Source: Methanocaldococcus infernus ME (GTDB taxonomy: Archaea; AGJL01; Methanococci; Methanococcales; Methanocaldococcaceae). Taken from it: DNA of 64,000 nucleotides. Below the pieces are notes generated by a model, which did not search any database, was not told where the DNA came from, and saw nothing but the letters and a program-made list of their open reading frames with translations. This document shows positions 15,604 through 57,998 of this stretch, piece by piece. The stretch's first letter is position 1; each line of letters begins with the position of its first letter. The DNA is taken from NCBI RefSeq assembly GCF_000092305.1, contig NC_014122.1, positions 1,054,001-1,118,000 of the forward strand. The letters run 5' to 3'. A program made the translations under genes and the position numbers.

Positions 15604-15881
15604 CTTTTTAACCCTTCTAAGTATCTTTTTATAGCTTTTTCACTATCATAGTTTAGCCTTACATTAATATTTTTTAATTCCTCTTTTATATGCTCTAACC
15701 CTTTGTCTAAGAAAAAGACTTGAAAGCTTGTAGTATTTACAATATTTAAAACCACTATCATATCATCCTCTCTTAATTCCCTATTTTCTTCTTTAGCCTT
15801 AATTTTAACATAGTATCCATACCCAGCATCTATGGCCTCTTTAACAGTCATTATTCCTGTTAGAGTAGCAACAAATTCCAT
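15600..15881 (-). CDS. DUF749-like small protein
   Basis: A 93-residue protein starting MEFVATLTGIMTVKEAIDAG, with a beta-rich centre (DDMIVVLNIVNTTSFQVFFLD) and a helical end. It matches the small archaeal DUF749 family from memory; function unknown. It shares one base with the fttA stop and overlaps the following gene by 4 nt, so translation is probably coupled through the three genes. A role linked to transcription termination would be speculation from position only. Confidence 0.55.
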   Translation of the reverse strand: MEFVATLTGIMTVKEAIDAGYGYYVKIKAKEENRELREDDMIVVLNIVNTTSFQVFFLDKGLEHIKEELKNINVRLNYDSEKAIKRYLEGLKR

Positions 15882-17776
15882 TATTTCACCCTTATACAGT
15901 CTAAAACTCTTGGAGCATAGGTTTCCTTTTTAAATAGCCTATTAACAGTTGAGGAGAAGTCTAAACACTTACTTTCTTCACCATGAACCATTATTATCTT
16001 CTCAGGAGAAGGTTTAACTTTCCTCACATATCTTATTAGTTGTTTTCTATCACTATGCCCAGAGAATCCTTCAACTGTATAAACTCCCATATTTATAGGG
16101 ATAGATTTAGTTTTACCATTCTTAGTTACTATAGGAATTTCCTTCCAACCCTTCTGAACCTTTCTTCCTAAGGTTCCTTCTGCCTGATAACCAACAAAGA
16201 TAATAGCATTTTTCTCATCAGGTGCTAAGTTTTTGAAATACTCTAAACTTGGTCCTCCTGTGAGCATTCCAGAGGTTGCTAAGATAACACAGGGCTCACT
16301 GTCATCTATAATTCTCCTTCTATCATTTGTATTCCTAACCCTCTGGAAGACATCAGATAGAAATGGATTGTCTCCCTCTTGGAAAATTTTTCTTCTCATG
16401 TCCTTTGATAGATACTCTGGGTAAGCTGTATGTATAGCTGTAGCCTCCCAGATCATCCCATCTAAATAGACAGGAGCATTAAATATTCCTTGGTTGTAAC
16501 CCTCTTCTAAAACTAACATTAACTCCTGAGCTCTTCCAACTCCAAACACAGGAATTAATATTTTTCCCCCTTTCTCTATATGTTCTATAACTATCCTTAA
16601 TAACTCTTTCTCAGCCTCAGCCCTATCTGGGAGTACATCATCATAACCTCCATAGGTAGATTCAATAATTAAAGCCTCTAATCTTGGAAATTGACAAACT
16701 GCTGGCTCTAAGAGTCTTGAGGTGTCAAATTTTAAATCTCCTGTATAGGCTAAGTTATAAAGCCCTTCCCCAAAATGTAGGTGAGCTATTGCTGAGCCTA
16801 AGACATGTCCAGCATTGTGTAAGGTTAACTTTATTGATGGACTTATGTCAGTTGTAACTCCATAGTCTAAGGGAATAACATGCTTAACACACTCTTTTAT
16901 CTCCTTACTTGAGAATGGCACCGGCTTCCCTTCCTTCTCAGCAATATCTAAATAATCTTTCTGTAAGAGGGTCATTAAGTCCCTTGTTGGCCTTGTACAA
17001 TACACTGGTCCATCATAGCCATATCTAAACAATCCAGGAAGAAATCCACAGTGGTCAAGGTGGGCATGGGTTATAATAACAGCATCTAAATCCTCAATGG
17101 AAAACTCTGGAGCATCAAATTGAGGATACATCTTTTCCTCATAGGCTATATTAACTCCACAGTCAAGCAAAACCTTAGTGTCTGGAGTTTGTAACAATAG
17201 ACAAGATCTCCCAACCTCTCTGGCTCCACCTAAAAAAGAGACTCTTATCCAATAATCTCCTTTTTGTATAACTTCTCTATGTATCCTTCTTCCAATTCTT
17301 CTTAATATTTCTTTAACTTCATCCCTCTCCCTAAATAATGTAGCCCTAATAGCCTTTATTGTCTCTGATGGGATTGGTGGAGCTCTAACAGGCTTTGGTG
17401 CCCATCTTATAGCTTTCTTTATAGCCTCTAAGGTTTTTCCCTCTTTCCCTATAACCAATCCTGGTTTTTTAGACTCTATTATTACTTCTCCAGTGTTTGC
17501 ATCAAAAATAATATCTGTGATTCCAGCATCCTCTGGAACTATCTCTAAAATCTTCTTCTTAGCAAGCTCTGGCTCCATCAAAACAGAGGGATCTGGCCTA
17601 ATAACTATTCTCTTTCTTAAATCTTTTGCTAACTGTTTAATAATATCATTTGTATAAATTTCAGGATTTTTCACATAAATAACTAATTCAGGCCCTTCAA
17701 ATTGAACATCTATAATTTTAGCTCCCTTTGGAGATTTATTTATGATCTCCTCTTTTAATCTTTCTAAAACTTCCAA
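15881..17776 (-). CDS. fttA: Transcription termination factor FttA (aCPSF1) ribonuclease
   Basis: FttA is the archaeal CPSF73 homologue that cleaves nascent RNA and releases RNA polymerase. The 631-residue protein has two N-terminal KH-like regions (the second with VIGKEGKT at 108-115). A metallo-beta-lactamase domain follows with the zinc motif HAHLDH at residues 237-242 and HNAGHVLGSA further on. The beta-CASP domain includes GVGRAQELM and the late FSGHSDRKQL and VHGEESKC. Every catalytic motif is intact. It starts a leftward operon with the two small downstream genes. Confidence 0.95.
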   Translation of the reverse strand: MEVLERLKEEIINKSPKGAKIIDVQFEGPELVIYVKNPEIYTNDIIKQLAKDLRKRIVIRPDPSVLMEPELAKKKILEIVPEDAGITDIIFDANTGEVIIESKKPGLVIGKEGKTLEAIKKAIRWAPKPVRAPPIPSETIKAIRATLFRERDEVKEILRRIGRRIHREVIQKGDYWIRVSFLGGAREVGRSCLLLQTPDTKVLLDCGVNIAYEEKMYPQFDAPEFSIEDLDAVIITHAHLDHCGFLPGLFRYGYDGPVYCTRPTRDLMTLLQKDYLDIAEKEGKPVPFSSKEIKECVKHVIPLDYGVTTDISPSIKLTLHNAGHVLGSAIAHLHFGEGLYNLAYTGDLKFDTSRLLEPAVCQFPRLEALIIESTYGGYDDVLPDRAEAEKELLRIVIEHIEKGGKILIPVFGVGRAQELMLVLEEGYNQGIFNAPVYLDGMIWEATAIHTAYPEYLSKDMRRKIFQEGDNPFLSDVFQRVRNTNDRRRIIDDSEPCVILATSGMLTGGPSLEYFKNLAPDEKNAIIFVGYQAEGTLGRKVQKGWKEIPIVTKNGKTKSIPINMGVYTVEGFSGHSDRKQLIRYVRKVKPSPEKIIMVHGEESKCLDFSSTVNRLFKKETYAPRVLDCIRVK

Positions 17777-17867
17777 ATAAGATCACCTTTTAAAATAATT
17801 TGTATATTTAAAATAAGAAATTTAGCTTTTAAAATAGAAATTATTACAAATATTTAAAATAAAAAAT

Positions 17868-18485
17868 TTATTTTTTCTTGATTAATTTCTTTATCTCATC
17901 ATCCTCATAAATCTTTACTCCATCTTTAGTTATTAAGGCTAAACTAACCCCATTCCCTGAAAAAGTATCTCTCTCCATAGCAGCCTGTAAAGCCTTTAAA
18001 ACTAATGAAACTCCTTTTTTATAGTCCATATCTTTCTTGTATCCAGCCTCTAACACCCCATAAGCAATAGGAGATCCTGAACCTGTTGCTGTAAAGTCTT
18101 TCTCTTCATTAACCCCTCCCAAGGGATCTAAGGAATAGAGCTTAAAGCCCTTCTCATCAAAACCTCCAACAATCATTTGAACTAAAAAAGGGAAGTATCT
18201 GCTTGAGTGTAAGATATTACTTAACAGTGTTGTACAAGCCAAAGGAGACATTAACTTTCCTGTCCTCATTCTATAAAGCTTAGCCTCAGCTGTTAGATAT
18301 CTAACCAATGACTGAGCATCCCCAACACTTCCAGCAATGGTTAGGGCTAAGTTATCATCTATCTTATAAATTTTTTTAGCATTTTTGTCAGCTATTAGAT
18401 TTCCTAATGAGGCTCTTTTATCAGCAGCCAAAATAACTGCATCTTTGCATATTAAACCAATAGTTGTAGTTCCTTTCATTTCCAT
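17868..18485 (-). CDS. psmB: 20S proteasome beta subunit
   Basis: The catalytic subunit of the archaeal 20S proteasome. The peptide begins [13 protein letters not shown], and autocatalytic cleavage before Thr6 would expose the N-terminal threonine nucleophile. The family lysine ([11 protein letters not shown]) and [10 protein letters not shown] motif are present. I moved the start to the ATG at 18485 because AAGGTGA lies 5 nt upstream; the GTG at 18494 is inside that ribosome site. The short propeptide resembles that of M. jannaschii. The alpha subunit is encoded separately at 32273-33016. Confidence 0.94.
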
Positions 18486-18525
18486 CAATTTCACCTTAAA
18501 AAATGTAAAAAAGAAGTTTGAGAGA

Positions 18526-19314
18526 TTAAAGATAGTTTCTATAATATAAGGAGTAGGCTCTTAAAATGAATACTGAAAGATAAAAGGAAATAAAATATTG
18601 TATGAAACTACTTAAAGTGTTAAGGAATATATAAACATTTAGGTTATCTACAAAGAAAGCTGGTAGATGTATAGCTAAGGCTATAATAGTTATTATTATT
18701 CCTATACCTACACCTATTAAAATAAGAAGGAGCCACAATATAATATAGTTTAAGTTAAACACCATTTTAAATATTTTTCCAAATTCAAAGAATCCAAAGA
18801 AGCCCTTCACTGAGAAATTAACCTGAGCTAATGGCTGATATAAAGCAAGAAGTATAAGAGAAATAATAAGTAAGACAATCCCAACCCCTATAAAAACTAT
18901 GCCAAATCCTTTAATTATTAAGGCTCCTATAATAAATAAAATAATTGGGACTATCATAAAAATTAAGGCTACTATGAAAGACCCTATAGAAAATAGAAAA
19001 CCTTTTATAATTAGATCTAAAAAATTGTCCCAATCTGGAGCTTTATCAGAGTTTTCAACACTACTTTTCATAATCCTAACAAAATATCCAGCAACTATTA
19101 AAGAAACTATAATAGCAACCATAATTAAGATAGCAAATATAATTATAACTGTGCTATTAATATTAAAGAAATATGATGATACCTTAAAAGAAAGATAACC
19201 ATTTAAAGCTCCTATCATGGCTCCAAAAATTCCATAGAGTATAGAGCCTAAGCTTAGCTCTTTAAAATTTGATCTTACATACTCAAAAGAATCTGTTAAG
19301 ATTTCTTTAATCAT
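18526..19314 (-). CDS. DUF4013 family membrane protein
   Basis: A 262-residue, strongly hydrophobic protein with about six helices. A cytoplasmic-looking segment [23 protein letters not shown] near residue 75-97 matches the DUF4013 signature of R-[IV]-[IM]-..-P-.-W-D. Function unknown. Its ribosome site is weak. It lies between psmB and the translin-like gene, all leftward, with gaps of about 40 nt, so a shared transcript is possible but not clear. Confidence 0.65.
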
Positions 19315-19351
19315 AAAATCCCCTTTAAAAAATTTTAATTAAAATATATAA

Positions 19352-19936
19352 TTATTCTTTATTTAAAGCTTTTCTTAATTTGAGATTTTCTATAAAATAG
19401 ACTAAGTCTCCATAACTTCTTTCTAAGATTCCTCTTGCTATATCCTGCTTTCTTCTTAGGTTATCTACAACATAGTAGTGGTCAAAGCTCATAATAAAGT
19501 CATAGAGCTCTTCCATAAATTTGTAGTATCTCTCAGCCTCCTCTTTGTCATCTTCCTTTATAGCCTCTAAGAACTCTCTCCTTAACTCTCCAATAGTGTC
19601 AGCTATCCCTAAAATATAGTTCTCCTCTTTTATAATCTCAAAGTCTTCAAACTTTGGAACTGTGTTGTAAAACTTAATGCTGTATAAAGTGTAGGCTTCA
19701 ACAAACTCCTGCTCTGGAGTTGATAGATAGTGAATAAATTCAGGATATTGAGTTAGCTCCTTTAATTTTATGATCTTCTCTCTTATACTTTTAAAATCTT
19801 CTTTAAAAACATCTTCCTTACTCTTATGTATTCTCCTTATAAGCATGGCACAATCTCTAACTATCTCTCTTGCCAATTTTAAGATTTCCTCCCTTGTTTG
19901 GTCTTTCTTTGTTAAATATTCTATTAAATAATCCAT
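19352..19936 (-). CDS. Translin-family RNA/ssDNA-binding protein
   Basis: A 194-residue, all-helical, acidic protein with the translin/TRAX pattern. It opens with TREEILKLAREIVRDCAMLIRRIH. The central YILGIADTIGELRREFLEAI corresponds to the conserved G-I-x-D-x-x-GE-[LI]-RR core, and SFDHYY...NLRRKQDIARGI lies near the C-terminus. Eukaryotic translin-TRAX (C3PO) is a small-RNA nuclease, and archaeal homologues bind or cut RNA. It starts 18 nt after the cas6 stop on the same strand, so it may be cotranscribed with the cas interference operon. Whether it acts on CRISPR RNA is unknown. Confidence 0.75.
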   Translation of the reverse strand: MDYLIEYLTKKDQTREEILKLAREIVRDCAMLIRRIHKSKEDVFKEDFKSIREKIIKLKELTQYPEFIHYLSTPEQEFVEAYTLYSIKFYNTVPKFEDFEIIKEENYILGIADTIGELRREFLEAIKEDDKEEAERYYKFMEELYDFIMSFDHYYVVDNLRRKQDIARGILERSYGDLVYFIENLKLRKALNKE

Positions 19937-19954
19937 AAAGAGATCACCTTCTTT

Positions 19955-20623
19955 TTACTCTTCAACTCTAACAACACTACCAAAACCTTTAGAAACTTTT
20001 CTACCAATTCCTAAGTAGTTTGGGATATTAAAATTAATTAAAAATTCTCCTTTAAAACCTATAAATTTATTTCCCTTATATTTAACTATAAAATCCTCCA
20101 ATTCTAAGACCTCAGCTTTTAGTTTTTCCTTAACATTATAATCTAAATATTTGCTCATTGATAATACATTTCCAACTAATATTTTCTCTAACAACTCTTT
20201 TTTCCCTTCATTGTCTAACTCTTTATATTTGGAATAGTTTTTCTCATTTAAGGCTAACCATGGAGATATAAACTTATACTTAACCATTTCTTTAGTGGTT
20301 CCAAAGTCTTCAAATCTAACTTTAGCATAGCCATTAACAACCTTATAAATTTCTCCTTTTAGCTCTAACTCTTTAATATTTAAAATAATGTCTCCTAAGA
20401 TATTGATCCCTTCCTTTATTCCTAATAAAATAGCATCTCCACCAATAATTTTATACTGTATTTTTGGATATGTGTAAATAAAGCCATTACCACTGTGGTT
20501 ATGTAACTCCTTATATTCCTCTTTATTAAATTTATTGAGTATATACCCCCTTACATAAGGAGTTTGAGACTTTTTTAAAGGCTTGTTTGTTTTTAACCTG
20601 CAAATTAGAATAGGTAGTTTCAT
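19955..20623 (-). CDS. cas6: CRISPR RNA endonuclease Cas6 (Cas6b type)
   Basis: Cas6 cuts the pre-crRNA within each repeat, leaving an 8-nt 5' handle. The 222-residue protein has two RAMP-like halves and the hallmark C-terminal glycine loop GIGRKVSKGFGSV near residues 205-217. The histidine-containing LHNHSGNGFIY near residue 40 may supply the active site. The handle predicted from the repeat here would be ATGGAAAC. The start follows GGTGAAAGAATT. It is the last cas gene of the leftward interference operon, 18 nt after cas3. Confidence 0.88.
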   Translation of the reverse strand: MKLPILICRLKTNKPLKKSQTPYVRGYILNKFNKEEYKELHNHSGNGFIYTYPKIQYKIIGGDAILLGIKEGINILGDIILNIKELELKGEIYKVVNGYAKVRFEDFGTTKEMVKYKFISPWLALNEKNYSKYKELDNEGKKELLEKILVGNVLSMSKYLDYNVKEKLKAEVLELEDFIVKYKGNKFIGFKGEFLINFNIPNYLGIGRKVSKGFGSVVRVEE

Positions 20624-26404: not shown

Positions 26405-27403
26405 ATGGACATTATATTAAAATCTTATGGATTTTTTATATATAAAAAAGGAGATAGGTTTATTTTTGAAGTTAAAGAAAATGGAGAAGTAAAGAAAGTT
26501 GAGATCTCTGCAAGTAAAGTTAAAAGAATAATTTTAGGAAAAGATGGAACTATTACTACATCAGCAATTAACTTAGCAATAGAATACAATATTCCAATAA
26601 TATTTTTAAAAAATGAGGATCCTACAGCAATGATATGGCATTGTAAGTTAGGTAAGACTGGAAAAATAAGAAGAAATCAGATAAAGTTTTCAGACACTAT
26701 TGAAGGAATGAAATATGCATCAAAATGGATTGAAAGAAAAATGAAAAATCAAATAGATTTTTTAAAAGAGCTTAAAAAGAACCATGGTAAGAAAGGAGAT
26801 TTTAACAAAATAATTGATAATATAAAAGAGTGTATTGATGATTTAAATAGATACTTAAATAATACAAAGGAAAATTTAGGGACTGTTAGAGACACTATTA
26901 TTGGAATTGAAGGGACTGCCTCAAAATACTATTTTAAAGGAATTAATTTAGCTCTTCCAGAAAAATATAAATTTAGTGAGAGAAGTAGAAGACCTGCAAA
27001 GGATAGGTTTAATGCTCTACTAAATTATGGTTATGGAATGCTTTATCCAGTTGTAGAAAAAGCTTGTATAGTTTCTGGTTTAGATCCATATATTGGATTT
27101 ATACATTCTGATGGATATAATAAGAGGTCATTAGTCTATGATATAATAGAGATATATAGAATTTATGTGGATAAAGGAGTTGTAAGTTTTATAAATAAAA
27201 AGAAAGTAAAAGATGAGTTTTTTATTAAACTACATAATGGAGTAGCCTTGTCAGATACAGGAATTAAAGAGTTTGCAGCATTCATAAATGAATATATATT
27301 TGATAAAGAGCTTGAGATTTATAAAAAGAGATATAAATTTCCTGATGCTATACAAAAGGAATGTTATAAAATTGCAAATGATATAAGGGAGAGATATTTA
27401 TGA
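26405..27403 (+). CDS. cas1: CRISPR adaptation integrase Cas1
   Basis: Cas1 integrates new spacers at the leader-repeat junction. The 332-residue protein has the N-terminal beta domain and the C-terminal catalytic helical domain. The metal ligands are visible as E169 (GIEGTASKYYF), H234 (GFIHSDG) and E249 (YDIIEIYR), all intact. The ATG follows GGTGAAGTT. The stop overlaps the cas2 start by 4 nt (ATGA). The rightward adaptation operon cas1-cas2-cas4 leads straight into the leader of array 1. Confidence 0.95.
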   Translation: MDIILKSYGFFIYKKGDRFIFEVKENGEVKKVEISASKVKRIILGKDGTITTSAINLAIEYNIPIIFLKNEDPTAMIWHCKLGKTGKIRRNQIKFSDTIEGMKYASKWIERKMKNQIDFLKELKKNHGKKGDFNKIIDNIKECIDDLNRYLNNTKENLGTVRDTIIGIEGTASKYYFKGINLALPEKYKFSERSRRPAKDRFNALLNYGYGMLYPVVEKACIVSGLDPYIGFIHSDGYNKRSLVYDIIEIYRIYVDKGVVSFINKKKVKDEFFIKLHNGVALSDTGIKEFAAFINEYIFDKELEIYKKRYKFPDAIQKECYKIANDIRERYL

Positions 27404-27684
27404 TTTATGTAATTTATGATATAAGTGATGATAAAATTAGAAAAAAAGTTTCTGATAAGTGTTTAAATTATGGATTATTAAGAATCCAAAAAAGTGTATT
27501 TGCGGGAAATCTAAACAAAAATAGAATTGATGAATTAAGAGTTTTCTGTGAGAATATTATTGAAGAGAATGACAAAGTTTACATAATTGAAGTTTGTGAA
27601 AAGTGTTTTGGAAAGTTAATTTGTATTGGTGAAGAATTTGATAAGGAGTTAGTTAATGACTCTAAAAAAACTATGGTGCTCTAA
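27400..27684 (+). CDS. cas2: CRISPR adaptation protein Cas2
   Basis: Cas2 forms the Cas1-Cas2 complex that measures and inserts spacers. The 94 residues show the ferredoxin-like Cas2 opening MIYVIYDISDDKIRKKV with the conserved Asp at residue 7, followed by LNYGLLRIQKSVFAG. The ATG is coupled to the cas1 stop. The normal length and intact first strand argue for function. Confidence 0.94.
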   Translation: MIYVIYDISDDKIRKKVSDKCLNYGLLRIQKSVFAGNLNKNRIDELRVFCENIIEENDKVYIIEVCEKCFGKLICIGEEFDKELVNDSKKTMVL

Positions 27685-27685
27685 A

Positions 27686-28276
27686 ATGGAATTTGATATG
27701 ATAACAGTGTCAGATGTTATTGAATACTTATACTGTCCAAGATTTGTTTATTTTGAGAGAGTTTTAGGAATTCTTCAACATGAGGAAAAAAGAGAAAAAG
27801 TTTTAATTGGAAGGCATATTCATGAGCTGAAAGAAAAAATAAATAAAAACTATATCAGAAAATCAATAAATGCTAAATCAAAATATTCAAATGTTTATCT
27901 ATCATCTAAGAAATACAAAATAGTTGGGATTGTAGATGAAGTTTTAGAATTAAATGATGGAAGCTTTTCACCTCTAGACTATAAGTTTGCAGAGTATAAA
28001 AGTAGATTATTTAAAACATATAAGTATCAATCTGTTTTGTATGGCTTATTGATTAAAGAAAATTTTAATGTCAATGTAAATAAAGGGTTTATAGTTTATG
28101 TGAGAAGTGGAAATCTTATTAAAGAAATTAAATTCAAAAAAGAAGATTTTAAAAAAGCTATTGAATTCATTAAACTTATATTTGAGATTATTGAAGATGA
28201 AAAATTTCCCATAGATATTAAAGTTAATAAAAAGAAATGTATTGATTGTTGTTATAGAAATTTATGCTGCCTTTAG
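27686..28276 (+). CDS. cas4: CRISPR adaptation nuclease Cas4
   Basis: Cas4 trims prespacers and helps select the PAM and orientation. About 196 residues. It carries a RecB-type nuclease core (GIVDEVLEL, SPLDYKFAEYK, then the YKYQS motif) and the Fe-S cysteines, one near the N-terminus (LYCPRFVYFE) and three near the end (KKCIDCCYRNLCCL). I chose the ATG at 27686, just after the cas2 stop and behind ATGGTGC; the longer frame from 27656 lies inside cas2. It ends 16 nt before the leader hairpin. Confidence 0.9.
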   Translation: MEFDMITVSDVIEYLYCPRFVYFERVLGILQHEEKREKVLIGRHIHELKEKINKNYIRKSINAKSKYSNVYLSSKKYKIVGIVDEVLELNDGSFSPLDYKFAEYKSRLFKTYKYQSVLYGLLIKENFNVNVNKGFIVYVRSGNLIKEIKFKKEDFKKAIEFIKLIFEIIEDEKFPIDIKVNKKKCIDCCYRNLCCL

Positions 28277-28728
28277 AAGGAAACTTTTATAAGAAACTTT
28301 TAGAAAAAGTTTCATCAAAAGGAATTAGTTTGATGGGTTTTTATTTTTTTGTTATTAGTTATTTGGATATCGCTATTAACGTTTTTAATTAAGTTTTCTT
28401 GCTTTTATATAGGGGTTGTTGAAAATTGGTACGAGAAAATTGGGGAAAAGTAATACTGATTTTTTCGTTGGAGAATTGTGATTTTTTAGTTTTTTGGTTT
28501 GTTTGCTGTTATTTTATATGTTTTAGGTTTAGTTAGGAGTTGTTTTTAGTGAAATAAGGGTTAATTGCTGAGCTTTATTTTAACGGTTGTGCATAGTATT
28601 TTTAAATGGAGGGAACAATCTTTCTTACTTTTATATAGGGGTTCAATAATCAACCAGTAAGAAAACTCGGGTTTAAAAAGAAAGTTTTTTATAGGAGTTT
28701 TGATATAAAATAAGGACAGACATTAAGG
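28277..28728 (+). promoter_or_regulatory. CRISPR leader of array 1 (long-repeat element, copy 1)
   Basis: A gene-free AT-rich stretch between cas4 and the first repeat. From about 28293 to 28728 it matches 56621-57055 almost base for base. It resembles the roughly 400-bp long segment (LR) that I recall preceding short repeats in M. jannaschii. It contains two copies of CTTTTATATAGGGG (28402-28415 and 28628-28641), each a good archaeal TATA element. The second, 87 bp before the first repeat, is the likelier array promoter. The leader ends GACAGACATTAAGG, where new spacers should insert. I see no convincing reading frame in it. Confidence 0.85.
28293..28313 (+). repeat. 21-bp perfect hairpin at leader 1 boundary
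   Basis: GAAACTTTT and AAAAGTTTC form a perfect 9-bp stem with a 3-nt loop, 16 nt after the cas4 stop. The same element occurs at 56520-56540 and 56621-56641, plus a mutated copy at 56495-56515. It marks the outer edge of the homologous leader block. It could serve as a terminator-like structure or be a scar of element duplication. Confidence 0.7.
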
Positions 28729-29274
28729 GTTTGAATCGCCAGTCCATTAAAACAAGGATGGAAACTAAGTATCAATTTCTAATGTACCTTGGGTATCTGG
28801 GTTTGAATCGCCAGTCCATTAAAACAAGGATGGAAACCTTGTGCTTTTTCTTCTTGCCATTATCTCATTCCTCGTTTGAATCGCCAGTCCATTAAAACAA
28901 GGATGGAAACAGATGGACGGGTTGTTTTCTCATATCAATGATTTGTGTTTGAATCGCCAGTCCATTAAAACAAGGATGGAAACTTCACAGGAGTATGTTT
29001 AGGTGGTGGAAAATCAGATTCGTTTGAATCGCCAGTCCATTAAAACAAGGATGGAAACATAAAATAAGAGCGTATTCTCTAAAAAACTTTGGCTTGTTTG
29101 AATCGCCAGTCCATTAAAACAAGGATGGAAACCCCAGCAGATCTATGTCCTCCATTCCCGAGGAAAATGTGTTTGAATCGCCAGTCCATTAAAACAAGGA
29201 TGGAAACCTTTTGCAGTTTTTAGGATGTGCATTTAACCAAACAAAAGTTTGAATCGCCAGTCCATTAAAACAAG
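28729..29274 (+). CRISPR. CRISPR array 1: 7 full repeats plus 1 truncated, 7 spacers
   Basis: The 37-nt repeat begins GTTTGAATCGCC and ends GGATGGAAAC. Full copies start at 28729, 28801, 28874, 28947, 29022, 29096 and 29171 and are identical. The eighth at 29247 keeps only its first 28 nt and then breaks into AAAAAATG. Spacers are 35, 36, 36, 38, 37, 38 and 39 nt. The leader and cas1-2-4 lie upstream, so transcription is rightward. The repeat end fits a type I-B handle ATGGAAAC. The truncated repeat marks the old, leader-distal end. Confidence 0.98.
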
Positions 29275-29288
29275 AAAAAATGAAAAAC

Positions 29289-29662
29289 ATGATAGAAATT
29301 AGAGGAAAAAACAAGGAAGAAATTCTAAAGAAGATTGAGAGCTTAGGAGAGCATGAGGAAATATATATAAATAAAGAGCTTGATAGAGATATAGCTATAG
29401 CTCTCCTGGAAAATGTTGAGCCTTCTAAAATATATATCCCCATATCTAAATATAAAAGAAGCTCAAAGAAAATTCTTAAAGCTCTTGAGAAAATAGGAGT
29501 TGAAGTAATTCCAATTAAAGCCAAGGTTGGGAAGCCAACAAATATAGATAAAATTATAAAAAAATACTTAGATAAGAAGCCTAAGGAAATAGCTGAGCTT
29601 ACAGGAATTAACTTAAAAACTGTTGAATATCACTACTACAAGCTAAAAAAGAGGGAAAAGGG

Positions 29663-29687
<25 letters not shown>
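29289..29687 (+). CDS. HTH protein (DUF1699-like), abutting CRISPR array 1
   Basis: A 132-residue protein from ATG 29289 (another ATG lies at 29280). The first part is alpha/beta with PSKIYIPISKYKRSSKKIL near the middle. A helix-turn-helix follows (PKEIAELTGINLKTVEYHYYKLKK, residues about 100-123). It resembles DUF1699-type methanogen regulators, a tentative label. The truncated last CRISPR repeat ends only 14 nt before the start, and I see no GGTG-type ribosome site. The 3' end overlaps trkA by 25 nt, so it leads an operon with trkA, thrB and the VWA gene. Confidence 0.65.
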
Positions 29688-32272
<2,585 letters not shown>

Positions 32273-32280
<8 letters not shown>

Positions 32281-57055: not shown

Positions 57056-57998
57056 GTTTGAATCGCCAGTCCATTAAAACAAGGATGGAAACCGATGGTT
57101 TAGAAGCCCTAACACAATTAATAGAAAAGTTTGAATCGCCAGTCCATTAAAACAAGGATGGAAACCTGGAGTTCCAACAACATACTTTTTTCTCCAAGGC
57201 ACGTTTGAATCGCCAGTCCATTAAAACAAGGATGGAAACAAGCAGAGGTAAATACAATAGATAACGAATTAGTGAGTTTGAATCGCCAGTCCATTAAAAC
57301 AAGGATGGAAACAAATTCTTCTTTTTAACTTTTCTACTATCTCCTGATAAGGTTTGAATCGCCAGTCCATTAAAACAAGGATGGAAACGCATTAGTTACC
57401 ATATCTGCATATCTCAACGTAAACGTTTGAATCGCCAGTCCATTAAAACAAGGATGGAAACTGAATGTTCATTTTAAATATAAACATCTTGGATTAAAGT
57501 TTGAATCGCCAGTCCATTAAAACAAGGATGGAAACATGGATAAGATAAATCAAGCTCCTCCAGAACTTTCTTTCTCAATGTGATCTCAACAAAAGACATG
57601 TTTGAATCGCCAGTCCATTAAAACAAGGATGGAAACTTTTTGTTGGCTCAGGAGTTGGTGGGAAGATAATTGTTTGAATCGCCAGTCCATTAAAACAAGG
57701 ATGGAAACACACTAACTTTGGGATTTTGTCTAGGGGTATTCTGGTTTGAATCGCCAGTCCATTAAAACAAGGATGGAAACATCTTGACGAAAGAACCCAA
57801 GAATCCCATATCCATTGTTTGAATCGCCAGTCCATTAAAACAAGGATGGAAACTCAACATAAATTCTCTTAGCACATATGTATTCCTCAGTTTGAATCGC
57901 CAGTCCATTAAAACAAGGATGGAAACACGTGGATAAGAGGTATGTGACATACTACATCATAGTTTGAATCGCCAGTCCATTAAAACAAGGATGGAAAC
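57056..57998 (+). CRISPR. CRISPR array 2: 13 identical repeats, 12 spacers
   Basis: Repeats of 37 nt start at 57056, 57129, 57203, 57276, 57352, 57425, 57499, 57600, 57672, 57744, 57817, 57890 and 57962. They are identical to each other and to array 1. Spacers are 36, 37, 36, 39, 36, 37, 64, 35, 35, 36, 36 and 35 nt; the seventh (57536-57599) is an outlier. The leader is on the left, so transcription is rightward. The last repeat is intact and its final base is also the last base of the helicase gene's stop codon. Confidence 0.98.

Follow-up and report, generated by a model that had tools for sequence, protein, structure and literature searches.

The decay of terminal CRISPR repeats is in itself well known and ordinary. 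Degenerate repeats accumulate at the distal array end in P. abyssi (PMC3124441), altered last repeats are also treated in CRISPRDetect (PMC4869251), and the tendency of the oldest repeat to degrade is given as a common fact in work on extraneous crRNA (PMC12080349). According to the same source, a spare repeat yields an RNA that carries part of the repeat and no acquired guide, and mutation of the repeat prevents this; the systems studied were of types II-A and II-C, and application to a type I-B array is an extrapolation. Work on Cbp1 and Cren7 describes archaeal arrays transcribed from a promoter in the leader, to which spacers can add promoters, and is concerned with crRNA yield (PMC10883916). 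In Haloferax volcanii, the small RNA s479, whose coding sequence has a CRISPR locus on one side and cas genes on the other, is reported to be linked to zinc transport (PMC8155600).

Here we analysed an array, array 1, which lies in a window of 64,000 nucleotides of the Methanocaldococcus infernus ME chromosome (all positions below are those of the window unless stated otherwise). The host is a heat-loving, methane-making archaeon, and its genome (1,328,194 bp) holds six CRISPR arrays. As in the degenerate terminal repeats described for P. abyssi and in CRISPRDetect, the last repeat of array 1 is altered while the inner ones are identical. In contrast to those cases, as far as these sources describe them, only 14 nt separate the point of loss from a conserved start codon. 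What is unusual at array 1 is that no trailer stands between the remnant of the repeat and the gene. If array transcripts enter that gene, array 1 would serve cellular genes as their 5' region, a matter apart from the crRNA yield addressed for Cbp1 and Cren7; the case proposed is also one of direct transcriptional fusion, whereas s479 is a small RNA.

A comparison can also be made with crRNA-like regulatory RNAs of the CreTA type. There, a pseudo-spacer between degenerate repeats partly matches the promoter that it represses, and a small toxic RNA gene lies beside it, between cas genes. By comparison, the last spacer of array 1, spacer 7, has no second copy in the whole M. infernus genome at up to three mismatches, a search that would miss short partial matches. 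Among the open-licence papers listed for leader read-through into genes, CRISPR rearrangement, the CRISPR of this species and degenerate-repeat crRNA-like regulators, none was found to report this arrangement.

Array 1 ends in a truncated repeat

The array lies next to a type I-B locus in which cas8b, cas7, cas5, cas3 and cas6b are on the minus strand and cas1, cas2 and cas4 on the plus strand, all of them nearby. It has the identical repeats, the unique spacers of similar length and the adjoining conserved leader of a type I-B array. The features are as follows.

19955..20623, minus strand: cas6b of the type I-B locus (Pfam Cas6b_N and Cas6b_C)
26405..28276, plus strand: cas1-cas2-cas4, upstream of the leader
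28729..29274, plus strand: array 1, eight repeats at spacings of 72-76 nt, sited after cas4
28729..29207, plus strand: repeats 1-7, intact and identical 37-mers with six complete spacers between them (sequence comparison)
29171..29207, plus strand: repeat 7, the last with hairpin and 8-nt handle (repeat comparison and fold; handle rule from PMC3945376)
29208..29246, plus strand: spacer 7, 39 nt, with T4 at 29209 and T5 at 29217
29247..29274, plus strand: what is left of the terminal repeat (28 of 37 nt), lacking the handle and the Cas6 hairpin arm (repeat comparison and fold)

The same-strand neighbours of cas6b (15881-20623) are a Translin-family gene, a DUF4013 gene, a proteasome subunit and aCPSF1, the archaeal termination factor.

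The initial annotation had the eighth repeat keeping 28 of its 37 nt and losing the end that holds the predicted Cas6 site, and this was borne out. The repeat matches at 28 of 28 nt (29247-29274), after which AAAAAATGAAAAAC stands in place of GATGGAAAC. The nine 3' nucleotides that are missing carry the 8-nt handle as well as one hairpin arm, the hairpin being the only one in the repeat. Repeat 7 folds into a 6-bp hairpin of -5.6 kcal/mol, unremarkable against shuffled sequences (z -0.8); the remnant reaches -0.1 kcal/mol and the hairpin cannot form. Copies of the 28-mer (80 at up to three mismatches, against none for the reversed-pattern control) lie nowhere in the genome but in its six arrays, and a chance match is thereby ruled out. 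An artefact of repeat calling is likewise ruled out, since the match is complete up to 29274 and the next stretch does not match. We also considered a remnant expanded by insertion, with GATGGAAAC hidden in AAAAAATGAAAAAC; this was not supported, as 65 of 437 gene-upstream 14-mers align equally well.

Three of the six terminal repeats in the genome are intact, one has a single substitution near its 3' end, one diverges from about its last five positions, and that of array 1 lacks nine nucleotides. With the 3' end thus altered in three of six, and its own inner repeats conserved, array 1 belongs with the arrays having a degenerate terminal repeat. Of the remaining five arrays, four meet a convergent gene at their ends, and one is followed at about 95 nt by a gene on its own strand.

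Some features of the other arrays were recorded on the way. In array 2 one spacer measures 64 nt (57536-57599) where the others have 35-39 nt; it may be a fusion of two units that lost the repeat between them. Two spacers of the 23-repeat array are each present twice (L064:1268-1305 and 1491-1528; L064:2389-2430 and 2468-2509), a sign of internal recombination or duplication. At position 10 of the repeat, four arrays carry G and two carry A (L064-L068 and the window arrays), with no variation inside any one array.

The remnant runs into a helix-turn-helix gene

Downstream of the remnant, a gene for a helix-turn-helix protein (HTH) and three further genes follow on the plus strand.

29275..29288, plus strand: A-rich junction AAAAAATGAAAAAC, 14 nt (11 A), holding an upstream in-frame ATG at 29280
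29289..29687, plus strand: HTH gene, 132 aa, C-terminal helix-turn-helix (start by homology)
29663..30310, plus strand: trkA-like gene (TrkA_N and TrkA_C), TTG start inside the HTH frame, SD-like GAGGG
30315..31187, plus strand: thrB, homoserine kinase
31168..32280, plus strand: VWA-domain gene, overlapping the end of thrB

The HTH frame can open at ATG 29280, 5 nt past the remnant, or at ATG 29289, 14 nt past it, so that the gene does start within 15 nt of the remnant, as first annotated. In an alignment of homologues from the order, 23 of 26 start at the column of ATG 29289. Neither ATG is preceded by a Shine-Dalgarno-like (SD) motif, in keeping with the earlier remark that no ribosome site is visible; this says little about the gene, because 131 of 437 scored genes fail the same test. 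Because gene starts in the training set came from a simple rule that favours starts with an SD, the SD frequencies are inflated.

The HTH protein is intact and 68-75% identical to the HTH of 12 congeners, which argues that it is not decaying. A PDB sequence search with it gave weak matches only. Its last eight residues read into the start of trkA (29663-29687) and have no counterpart in relatives: the gene seems, from its sequence, to have lost an ancestral stop. The HTH/trkA junction is as tight as that between array and HTH. A scan of the sequence collection with the TrkA protein returned just three distant bacterial loci.

Comparison with relatives points to rearrangement at both junctions

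We compared the locus with 13 congeners (Methanocaldococcus). An HTH homologue was found in 12 of them and none in one fragmented genome. At one congener locus the HTH call was over-long, and the upstream neighbour was taken from a separate neighbourhood listing. HTH has a same-strand upstream gene in all 12 congeners, and in 10 of them this gene is one that we take to be Nob1 from its PIN and zinc-ribbon sequence; the gap between the two genes is at most 15 nt in 11 of the 12. Nob1 also lies 3 nt upstream of HTH in two genomes of another genus of the order, so that Nob1-HTH is probably the older arrangement. Downstream of HTH, eight of 12 congeners carry a gene (cluster c3) that, from its sequence, is presumably TrmJ. 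As for trkA, it was found in 12 of 13 congeners, in every one behind one conserved gene (cluster c1) and before thrB, and adjoining HTH in none of the 12. Among these genomes, an array beside HTH and HTH beside trkA occur only in M. infernus.

In the M. infernus genome the former neighbours are elsewhere: Nob1 (548825), the c1 gene (1007618-1008142) and TrmJ (249273; genome positions) all lie at least 75 kb from HTH at 1083289. That the array/HTH and HTH/trkA junctions are rearrangements is therefore a well supported reading of the gene orders. HTH has thus been parted from the gene once upstream of it, and trkA from the DNA that used to precede it. There is only a hint that array-to-array recombination was the cause. 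TrmJ (L152:9580-11950) is sited some 1.6 kb beyond another array's 3' end, a possible trace of array-mediated rearrangement that was noticed after several looks. We also considered spacer 7 as ancestral HTH upstream DNA; its near-normal spacer length and the lack of another copy in its own genome do not support this.

Promoter candidates for the array and the operon

The leader upstream of array 1 contains the following TATA-like sites.

28395..28728, plus strand: CRISPR leader, about 300 nt of it conserved beside all six arrays (sequence comparison)
28630..28637, plus strand: leader TATA box TTTATATA, scoring 10.2 with the matrix and sited at the same 99-nt distance from the first repeat in all six leaders
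28686..28693, plus strand: second TATA-like site TTTTTATA in the leader, overlapping T6 at 28685 (score 8.7)

The leader also holds two near-identical copies (22/23) of TTTCTTGCTTTTATATAGGGGTT, at 28395-28417 and 28621-28643, each with a strong TATA box.

Scores were obtained with a matrix of 13 columns built from 89 sites at most one mismatch from TTTATATA, which were collected from 182 first-of-operon genes in about 0.56 Mb of the genome. The matrix of a first motif search was discarded, its gene sets being kept: that search had settled on a C-rich pattern, under which HTH received a spurious score of 10.9 at 29143 and the leader no more than 4.2. The cross-validated median of the best score is 5.1 for first genes versus 2.4 for operon-internal genes. 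The leader's 10.2 is reached by 11 of 182 first genes and by none of 255 internal genes, and TTTATATA is the best promoter candidate for array and operon, with a start site that would fall at about 28657.

Upstream of HTH, this genome-trained matrix found no recognisable TATA box. The best score is 0.9; among first genes 160 of 182, and among internal genes 188 of 255, reach or exceed it. As a control, the same matrix does find a TATA box before HTH where HTH is a first gene in some, not all, genomes of the Methanococcaceae type (sister family), with scores up to 11.8. The initial annotation saw no room for a promoter of HTH's own, and the contrast between 0.9 and the leader's 10.2 agrees with this; HTH is closely packed in the congeners too. 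The missing TATA is nevertheless weak evidence, since scores as low as that of HTH occur in 14 of 133 first genes with an SD versus 67 of 255 internal genes, a likelihood ratio of just about 2.5.

Those 14 genes, whose TATA scores are no better than that of HTH, lend weight to the main rival to read-through from the leader. The operon may be transcribed from its own promoter, one that is weak, poor in TATA or leaderless and lies in spacer 7, the remnant or the junction; the CRISPR neighbour would then be irrelevant to its transcription. The nearest candidates would be TTTGAATC at 29248 and the T-rich element at 29217. AT-rich spacers of archaea can contain cryptic promoters, and in Sulfolobales such promoters in spacers are documented (PMC10883916). 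However, a score of 0.9 is nothing unusual for a repeat-spacer unit, being matched or beaten by 30 of the 74 units in the six arrays, and the gene has no SD either. We regard an own promoter as a real possibility, at somewhat worse than an even chance.

A promoter inside HTH that drives trkA-thrB-VWA and leaves HTH nearly silent appears unlikely. Its candidate, TATATATA at 29362, about 300 nt before trkA, is the best site inside the HTH frame, but its score of 4.1 is under the median of 4.7 for random 380-nt coding stretches and is no strong TATA; the conservation of HTH described above also speaks against a nearly silent gene. That array and operon are fed from cas1-cas2-cas4, upstream on the same strand, and not from the leader is very improbable given the T7 at 28344 after cas4 and several T6 runs between cas4 and the leader TATA.

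Termination and predicted Cas6 processing of array transcripts

Between the leader TATA and HTH there are three T-runs that could terminate array transcripts: T6 at 28685, within the TATA-like site, T5 at 28845 and T5 at 29217. This makes three runs of T5 or longer in a transcribed stretch of 632 nt, a higher density than the 1.7 per kb on the coding sense strand. Runs of T5 or longer stand at 43% of 176 convergent gene ends versus 18% of 275 intra-operon junctions. Termination in Methanococcus maripaludis is described as depending on polyU tracts and aCPSF1, with most sites 30-80% terminated (PMC10450193). From these counts and the M. maripaludis data, partial rather than complete termination is expected.

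In P. abyssi, Northern probes to ultimate spacers flanked by degenerate repeats are described as having given no signal (PMC3124441), and in Pyrobaculum reads came mostly from the 5' part of larger arrays (PMC3396285). Both results caution against taking it for granted that transcripts from the leader get to the distal end of an array. The shortness of array 1 (eight repeats) helps the case for read-through.

We conclude that read-through from the leader is the likeliest source of operon RNA. It is only modestly favoured, at about an even chance, because of the TATA likelihood ratio of about 2.5, possible termination at the T-runs and the P. abyssi result on last spacers. Decay of the transcript might likewise keep leader RNA from the operon.

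Such RNA was at first thought to enter the operon unprocessed, which is probably wrong. Repeat 7 (29171-29207) is intact and keeps its Cas6 site, 89 nt upstream of the HTH start, and the analysed Cas6 enzymes leave an 8-nt 5' handle (PMC3945376). Read-through RNA should therefore be cut between 29199 and 29200. The cut RNA would be an operon mRNA, detached from the pre-crRNA, with the handle, spacer 7 and the remnant as an 89-nt 5' region before ATG 29289. Translation from an untranslated leader of this length without an SD might be poor.

Discussion

The model that we propose as a whole comprises a rearranged HTH gene, loss of 9 nt from the repeat, read-through from the leader into the operon and a cut by Cas6b in repeat 7; we consider it as probable as not. 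Comparison with relatives indicates that a rearrangement in this lineage brought HTH from its passenger place behind Nob1 to a position between trkA-thrB and the end of the array away from the leader. It appears to have left no promoter DNA between array and HTH. The terminal repeat, whose 3' end was presumably no longer needed, has lost its last 9 nt, probably through decay or through breakage at the junction. The operon would then be transcribed at least partly by read-through from the leader promoter, about 630 nt upstream. Cas6b would cut the read-through RNA in repeat 7, giving the mRNA a 5' end in which spacer 7 follows the 8-nt crRNA handle. Provided that the array is transcribed, a last repeat without a Cas6 site would mean that no Cas6 cut falls right at the start of HTH.

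A stronger form of this model can be stated. The array would be both promoter and 5' leader of HTH-trkA-thrB-VWA; Cas6b would make the mRNA 5' end of crRNA handle and spacer 7, where Cascade could bind; the expression of the potassium regulator and the homoserine kinase would be governed by how active the leader is, by the level of Cas6 or by spacer turnover; and the last Cas6 site would have been lost by selection, sparing the HTH start codon. We consider this form unlikely. The coupling of immunity to potassium or threonine genes that the initial annotation had in mind is a testable possibility.

Should the leader feed the operon, a locus of adaptive immunity would double in M. infernus as the promoter region of housekeeping genes, and Cas6 would serve as an mRNA-processing enzyme for them. 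The locus would then show how a leader-bearing array can capture genes after a rearrangement.
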